DNA of 64,000 nucleotides from assembly GCA_947446975.1 (NCBI GenBank), contig CANFHM010000006.1:1-64000 (forward strand). The letters run 5' to 3'. The notes below the pieces were generated by a model. It saw only the letters and a list, made by a program, of their open reading frames with translations. It made no database searches and was not told the origin of the DNA. Positions within the stretch are counted from its first letter, which is position 1. Each line of letters begins with the position of its first letter. This stretch comes from Microthrixaceae bacterium. GTDB taxonomy: Bacteria > Actinomycetota > Acidimicrobiia > Acidimicrobiales > Acidimicrobilacustridaceae. The position numbers and the translations under genes were made by a program. Positions 61,811-63,424 of this stretch are shown here, piece by piece.

Positions 61811-61887
61811 CGGGGAATGGCGCAGCTTGGTAGCGCGCCTGCTTTGGGAGCAGGAGGCCGGGAGTTCGAATCTCCCTTCCCCGACCA
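61811..61887 (+). tRNA. tRNA-Pro (anticodon TGG)
   Basis: 77 nt: acceptor CGGGGAA/TTCCCCG, D-arm GGCGCAGCTTGGTAGCGC, anticodon stem CCTGC/GCAGG with loop TTTGGGA (anticodon UGG), TTCGAAT T-loop, encoded CCA at 61885-61887. The C1 start and G73-less form with discriminator A are typical of tRNA-Pro. Confidence 0.97.
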
Positions 61888-61954: not shown

Positions 61955-63253
61955 ATGTCCGAGCAGAACGGAAGCACCATGTCCCTGTCATCCGAGACCG
62001 GCGCCGAGAGCACCACGACCGTGGCTCCGCCCTCAAACCACTCCGATCGGATCACCGTCGGCACCTACGTGCGCTGGTTCGCCGCCGCACTGTCGGTGGC
62101 ATCAGCAGCCATCCATTACGGCTACGCGCCGCATCATCTCCAGGACGACTGGGCGCACGGCTGGTTCTTCGTCCTCATCGCCACGGCGCAGCTCGGCTTC
62201 GCCTTCCTCGTGGTCACCCGCCCCACGCGCTGGCTGTGGTCGCTCGCCGCGCTGCTCAACATCGGCATCATCGGCACATGGGTGGTCTCCCGCACCGCCG
62301 GCCTGCCCTTCGGGCCACAGGCATTGCGCAAGGAGGCGGTGGGCACCGCCGATGTGGTCTCCACGGTGCTCGAGGCGGCCGTGCTGGTGCTGGCCCTCGT
62401 CGCCATCTTCGCCCCCGGGCTCATGGACCGCGAACTGCGCGATCGCATGGGCGCCCGCTTCACCACCGGGGCGCTCAGCGGTGTCGCCCTGCTCGCGGCA
62501 TTCGTGATGCTCACCCCCACCTACACCGAGGCCCATGCTGCCGGTGGTCACTCCCACGCCGCATCCGGCGTGCTCACGGGCAACACCCCGTGTGAGAAGT
62601 CGGGCCCGGCTGCCTCGCCGGGTCAGGAGAACACCGACGCAGAGGGCCACAGCCATCGCGGGCCCACGGCCCAGCAGGTCGTGTCCCCCGAGGATCGTCA
62701 GACCCTGATCGAGCAGCAGCAGCAGGCCCGTGACGTCGCGCTGCGGTACCCCACCGTGGCCGATGCCGAGGCTGCCGGCTACCGCATGTCCACCGTGTAT
62801 GTGCCCTGCATCGGCGCCCACTACACCAACACCCGCCTCGCCATCCGCTTCGATCCCTCCCATCCGTCGGAGCTGCTCTACGACGGCACGAACCCGGATT
62901 CCAAGATCGTGGGCCTGAGCTTCCTCGTCTGGCATCCGAACGGCCCGCCGGAGGGGTTCGCCGGACCGAACGACTCCTGGCATCAGCACAACTTCAACGG
63001 CGGTCTCTGCCTGAAGGGCGGCGTGGTCGTCGGTGCCGAGGCCCTCACCCAGGACGAGTGCGCAGCCCGTGGTGGCGCCAAGCTCGGGCTCGAGGACATC
63101 TGGATGGTCCACGACTGGGTCGTCCCGGGCTGGGAGTGCTCGTGGGGCGTGTTCGCCGGTGAATGTCCCGAACTCGGCGGCGTCACCGGTCGCACCGCCT
63201 GGGACACCAACGACGGATCCGCTCCCGACCCGCTGCAGGCCATCGGGAAGTGA
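61955..63253 (+). CDS. Membrane protein with uncharacterised His/Cys-rich C-terminal domain
   Basis: 432 residues (424 if the ATG at 61979, with GGAAG 5 bp upstream, is the start). Five predicted TM segments at about 38-58, 68-88, 94-114, 132-153 and 171-188. Then a His-rich linker (GGHSHAA, 198-203; GHSHRG) and a 190-residue domain with YPTVADAEAAGYR (265-277), GAHYTN (287-292), a DSWHQHNF motif (His343, His345), HDWVVPGWECSWG (His386) and six or so cysteines (213, 285, 352, 369, 395, 404). The spaced His and Cys suggest a metal site on the outer face. I do not recognise the family with certainty. It stands alone after tRNA-Pro and is followed by a hairpin terminator. Confidence 0.8.
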   Translation: MSEQNGSTMSLSSETGAESTTTVAPPSNHSDRITVGTYVRWFAAALSVASAAIHYGYAPHHLQDDWAHGWFFVLIATAQLGFAFLVVTRPTRWLWSLAALLNIGIIGTWVVSRTAGLPFGPQALRKEAVGTADVVSTVLEAAVLVLALVAIFAPGLMDRELRDRMGARFTTGALSGVALLAAFVMLTPTYTEAHAAGGHSHAASGVLTGNTPCEKSGPAASPGQENTDAEGHSHRGPTAQQVVSPEDRQTLIEQQQQARDVALRYPTVADAEAAGYRMSTVYVPCIGAHYTNTRLAIRFDPSHPSELLYDGTNPDSKIVGLSFLVWHPNGPPEGFAGPNDSWHQHNFNGGLCLKGGVVVGAEALTQDECAARGGAKLGLEDIWMVHDWVVPGWECSWGVFAGECPELGGVTGRTAWDTNDGSAPDPLQAIGK

Positions 63254-63259
63254 TCTGCA

Positions 63260-63287
63260 CCGGTACGGGTGTCATCGCCCGTACCGG
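63260..63287 (+). terminator. Hairpin terminator after the membrane protein gene
   Basis: Perfect 10-bp stem (63260-63269 with 63278-63287) with an 8-nt loop, 6 bp after the stop codon. Confidence 0.8.
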
Positions 63288-63349: not shown

Positions 63350-63424
63350 GCGGGTGTAGCTCAATGGCTAGAGCGCCGTCCTTCCAAGTCGGATACGCGG
63401 GTTCGACTCCCGTCACCCGCTCCA
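63350..63424 (+). tRNA. tRNA-Gly (anticodon TCC)
   Basis: 75 nt with CCA: acceptor GCGGGTG/CACCCGC, D-arm AGCTCAATGGCTAGAGC, anticodon stem CCGTC/GTCGG with loop CTTCCAA (anticodon UCC), TTCGACT T-loop, discriminator T, CCA at 63422-63424. The anticodon stem has a T-T mismatch at the fourth pair (30-40). Confidence 0.95.

Follow-up and report, generated by a model that had tools for sequence, protein, structure and literature searches.

A predicted membrane-tethered extracytoplasmic domain with four conserved histidines, a candidate metal site, in an acidimicrobial genome

A gene encoding a membrane protein of 432 amino acids was identified on the plus strand at positions 61955-63253 of the window, i.e., the whole stretch of 64,000 nucleotides analysed from contig CANFHM010000006.1 of a Microthrixaceae bacterium. 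The open reading frame agrees in position, strand and length with that proposed in a first-pass annotation of this DNA. Its start near 61955 is in line with the similar starts of close orthologs, which show 88% identity in the C-terminal domain and have the tig/clpP neighbourhood in common. The features of the locus are as follows:

61811-61887: tRNA-Pro
61955-63253, plus strand: whole gene, 432-amino-acid membrane protein with a predicted extracytoplasmic C-terminal domain (open reading frame, ortholog starts)
62060-62518, plus strand: N-terminal membrane half, five transmembrane segments (hydropathy, 32-homolog alignment)
62519-62674, plus strand: His-containing linker, residues 189-240 (from the sequence, which includes AHAAGGHSH and EGHSHRG)
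62675-63193, plus strand: conserved, predicted extracytoplasmic domain, about residues 241-413 (alignment, AlphaFold2)
62819-62821, plus strand: H289 of HYTN, putative metal ligand (89/92 homologs)
62981-62989, plus strand: H343-Q-H345 of WHQH, putative metal ligands (91/92 and 92/92)
63008-63010, plus strand: C352, putative disulfide with C369 (90/92, lost together with C369)
63059-63061, plus strand: C369, putative disulfide with C352 (90/92)
63104-63118, plus strand: M384-V-H386-D-W388 of WMVHDW, with H386 and possibly M384 as putative ligands (M 89/92, H 91/92, W 89/92)
63260-63287, plus strand: perfect 12-pair hairpin, likely a terminator without a U-tract (folding; missed by the consensus scan)
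63350-63424, plus strand: tRNA-Gly (TCC)
63433 to window end, minus strand: convergent gene that reads as a molybdopterin oxidoreductase

The gene had been described as flanked by tRNA-Pro and a terminator. The tRNA-Pro gene is present, and the terminator is borne out in part: the hairpin (-24.9 kcal/mol, z -3.7) lies just 3' of the stop codon, but it has no T-run, and a consensus terminator scan found none for this gene. The tRNA-Gly gene directly downstream had been overlooked, and the gene thus sits between two tRNA genes. The convergent neighbour (locus L071:7437-9530) starts with CRVCNAMCGI and is also found in L033 and L089, two close relatives. Among such relatives, the gene for the membrane protein adjoins tig/clpP/clpX and the molybdopterin oxidoreductase gene, and elsewhere the neighbours vary. 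No conserved operon, copper operons included, was found among the neighbouring genes of the relatives. Gene context was therefore set aside as a clue to role, in agreement with the first-pass annotation.

The N-terminal half contains five transmembrane segments (residues 36-56, 66-88, 93-111, 128-153 and 167-188), as had been proposed. Hydropathy is clear for four of them; the first is weaker, yet conserved in homologs. Among 32 homologs, H54 and Q79 are invariant, and H61, W109 and D133 are nearly invariant. With the N-terminus inside, H54, H61, W109 and D133 would face outside, so that the membrane half probably does more than anchor the protein. A Pfam scan of this half gave no family over its cut-off. 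DUF7475 (PF24287) was rejected at 13.1 bits against a cut-off of 31.3, though nearly the full profile was covered; weak matches to it were seen in the membrane halves of four of the 32 homologs.

The linker that follows carries two His-rich stretches noticed earlier, AHAAGGHSH (193-201) and EGHSHRG (230-236). In 86 homolog linkers, a His content of at least 8% was found in 24%, compared with 6% of background stretches, and a Met content of at least 8% in 4.7%, compared with 0.2%; the background stretches were derived from a rough gene caller. His-rich linkers occur in many relatives, whereas Met-rich linkers (MNMGSS, MGNMVM, MPxMGG/MPxMGGGG) occur in about ten, other than the ten plastocyanin-fused relatives described below. 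The linker of relative L038 reads MSKMKGMDH.

The C-terminal domain contains the motifs HYTN (289-292), WHQH (342-345) and HDWVVPGWEC (386-395) at the places where they had been reported. Conservation was assessed in an alignment of 92 non-redundant homologs with less than 82% mutual identity, reaching down to 19% (about 20%) identity to the window protein. All four histidines (H289, H343, H345 and H386) are kept in 89 of the 92, a frequency that places the motif far above chance, and H345 is the single invariant column of the alignment. M384 and W388 are each kept in 89. The earlier suggestion of a three-histidine set therefore holds as a conserved, putatively metal-like His set, but the set comprises four histidines together with a conserved Met. 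Of the six cysteines in the protein (213, 285, 352, 369, 395 and 404), only C352 and C369 are shared by the whole family. C285, C395 and C404 are each found in 17 of the 92 homologs, and the cysteines other than the shared two are confined to one clade, so that the paired cysteines noted before reduce to a single family-wide pair.

Losses of these residues cluster in a wider set of 169 relatives. L051 combines H289M with H386R, and L275 combines H289E with H386D. Three changes (H289T, H343Q and M384T) occur together in L212 and two (H386D and M384V) in L279. An isolated loss of H289 is seen only in L220. L188, L189 and L199 lack both C352 and C369. The events are few and the evidence is evolutionary, but clustered loss of the histidines is the pattern that one shared site would tend to leave, and joint loss of C352 and C369 is that expected of one disulfide. 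The copy in L279 (892-2790, minus strand) is decayed and forms a fusion with a SurE domain and repeats of the bacterial Ig-like type.

A short sister family with the pattern MGxHYVN...LHVWxWxxNPxGxF was found in Actinomycetota, Pseudomonadota, Gemmatimonadota and haloarchaea. Its proteins are soluble or secreted and about 180 amino acids long, and its core is homologous to that of the window domain (hhalign 99.6% and 99.5%). The equivalents of H289 and H386 and the PExLLY and LVGVEY cores are kept, whereas WHxH, the methionine and both members of the cysteine pair are missing as a block. The HxH, Met and both Cys thus appear to come and go as a module.

Searches of the domain against Pfam, NCBIfam and PDB sequences were run singly and with the 92 members. 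No Pfam, NCBIfam or PHROGs profile exceeded its cut-off, and the PDB sequence search gave no match. The half-a-barrel family HAB (PF24721) was rejected, since it reached 14.2 bits against a cut-off of 27 (E 0.058) over 40 residues in one of 22 members. The domain family is thus undescribed in the libraries searched. The pattern AGY...HYxN...WH...HxW, which the first-pass annotation likened to uncharacterised bacterial domains without a family name, proved to be the genuine signature of this large family. The description of the protein as an orphan did not hold: the domain is present in 44 of the 61 nearest genomes, in 96 of the 298 genomes sampled from the order and in 23 of the 396 from the phylum, and the genome of the window itself encodes a paralog (L002, G000:C4:46148-46669) that is 43% identical in the domain and also has the membrane half. 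No copy of the window protein was found in viral contigs, phages or plasmids. Two tandem copies of the domain per protein were observed in L067 and L202, and about eleven matches in genome G552.

An AlphaFold2 model of residues 241-432 built from 92 sequences has a mean pLDDT of 90.5 and a pTM of 0.84, with a core near 97; a model built from 22 sequences gave 78.8 and 0.75, respectively. A Foldseek comparison with the PDB and with viral models returned no significant match.

The domain is predicted to lie outside the cytoplasmic membrane, since some relatives carry it in secreted (signal-peptide) or apparent lipoprotein versions and since the Cys pair is conserved. The count of five helices agrees with this placement if the N-terminus is inside.

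A link to copper is suggested by ten relatives in which a plastocyanin-type domain forms the C-terminal partner in the same polypeptide, with all four type-1 copper ligands (H..C..H..M; VPHT...C.LHPDM). The cut-off of the plastocyanin/azurin profile (PF00127) was exceeded in all four fusion relatives scanned. The window protein has no PF00127 match, and the window domain was rejected as a cupredoxin. Extracytoplasmic stretches rich in His or Met, like partnerships with plastocyanin, are typical of copper proteins; His-rich stretches are equally typical of zinc or nickel handling. Against the copper reading stand the His-rich linkers, which fit zinc or nickel, the lack of a conserved copper operon among the relatives' neighbouring genes, and the origin of the fusions in a single family branch, that of Ilumatobacter-like lipoproteins, outside the clade of the window protein.

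These observations make it quite probable that the domain is a membrane-tethered extracytoplasmic metal-binding domain, whichever the ion, with copper, the most likely ion, standing at an even chance. The ion would be bound by H289, H343, H345 and H386, perhaps with M384, inside a small fold rich in beta structure that a C352-C369 disulfide would stabilise; M384 could instead be conserved for packing. The five-helix half would anchor the domain and present its own conserved His/Asp/Trp set on the outer face, and the His-rich linker, Met-rich in some relatives, would gather metal near the domain. Because a plastocyanin-type carrier ends the same polypeptide in relatives, an exchange of electrons or copper between the domain and a partner of this type is proposed as most likely.

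Of the alternatives, an unlikely one that nevertheless carries some weight is that the histidines form a real site in the same architecture for zinc or another ion, as in a metallo-hydrolase or a zinc-sensing or zinc-storing domain. Sites of four histidines, like His-rich linkers, are often seen in zinc proteins, and the linkers in most of the family are His-rich and not Met-rich. The type-1 copper domain fusions and the Met-rich linkers in about ten relatives indicate copper instead, and no conserved Asp or Glu, usual in hydrolases, is found beside the His set. It is less likely still that His, Met, Trp and Cys line a metal-free pocket, either for catalysis in an enzyme or for the binding of a small molecule. 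Conserved Trp and Gly residues do surround the histidines, and the compact, confidently predicted fold has no characterised match; such a pocket would, however, make a coincidence of four essentially invariant histidines and a Met spaced i/i+2 in two segments, and another of the His- and Met-rich linkers and cupredoxin fusions. As for the "metal or heme site" of the first-pass annotation, the conservation of the four histidines favours metal, while heme is very improbable: conserved histidines could serve as axial ligands, but CxxCH is absent, four histidines are kept where one or two suffice, heme ligands are seldom spaced as closely as in HxH, at a distance of two residues, and structure comparisons gave no heme-protein fold.

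A second structural comparison with both AlphaFold2 models returned a sole match at a Z of 2 or more, a weak one to TTHB210 of Thermus thermophilus (3vg8; Z 2.9 across 72 residues for one model and 3.3 across 82 of 115 for the other, values that prove nothing by themselves); no other fold surfaced in this comparison, though others may exist. The structure of TTHB210 was reportedly solved in 2011 without an assigned function, and neither TTHB210 nor DUF5602 (PF18197) occurs in the set of papers searched; further literature searches gave nothing specific. The TTHB210-like/DUF5602 proteins share with the window family the order FIPGLG-x(3)-Y/F ... LLAY/LLY ... LV. The cores FIPGLG...FLAYD...LV...PHxH of TTHB210 and VPCIGAHY...LLYDG...IVG...WHxH of the window family run parallel, with an invariant PHxH in DUF5602 in the place of WHxH. 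An equivalent of H289, the Cys pair and the membrane half are absent from DUF5602. By hhalign, PF18197 aligned with the alignments A4 and A5 and the short family at 17%, 6% and 25%, respectively, over the expected core; these values lie below the usual thresholds, and an unrelated control gave 0.05%. The PF18197 profile had no match in the genome of the window or in 99 others, nor in the Pfam scans. The domain was accordingly not filed as TTHB210-like, in view of the low Z, the hhalign values of 6-25% and the lack of a PF18197 match. A distant relation is plausible.

At seven annotated alphaproteobacterial loci (L120, L121 and L125-L129), the DUF5602 gene overlaps the start of a plastocyanin/azurin gene, a parallel to the cupredoxin fusions in the family of the window protein that, like the parallel cores, points towards the distant relation. 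In two cases a sigma-factor gene follows, and some DUF5602 loci lie near genes for a cbb3 oxidase and a hexameric tyrosine-coordinated heme protein. A sigma-regulated copper unit at these loci is possible. It may further be proposed, tentatively and against somewhat unfavourable prospects, that the domain defines a new superfamily of copper proteins that has a fold of its own and a site of four His plus Met. Such a superfamily would have membrane-anchored, lipoprotein, secreted and cupredoxin-fused forms and would span Acidimicrobiales to haloarchaea (via the short family). It would also take in the TTHB210-like proteins, as remote partners to carriers of the plastocyanin type. If the metal-binding reading is right, a new extracytoplasmic cuproprotein or metalloprotein is encoded in about one third of the sampled genomes of this actinobacterial order, and the TTHB210-like proteins would gain their first functional lead. 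A possible counterpart in manner of working is YcnI (DUF1775) of Bacillus. Its conserved residues differ from those of the window domain, and no Pfam sequence match was obtained here; the likeness is one of working only, in that YcnI is described as a membrane-linked extracytoplasmic copper-binding domain from a previously uncharacterised family (PMC8424229).
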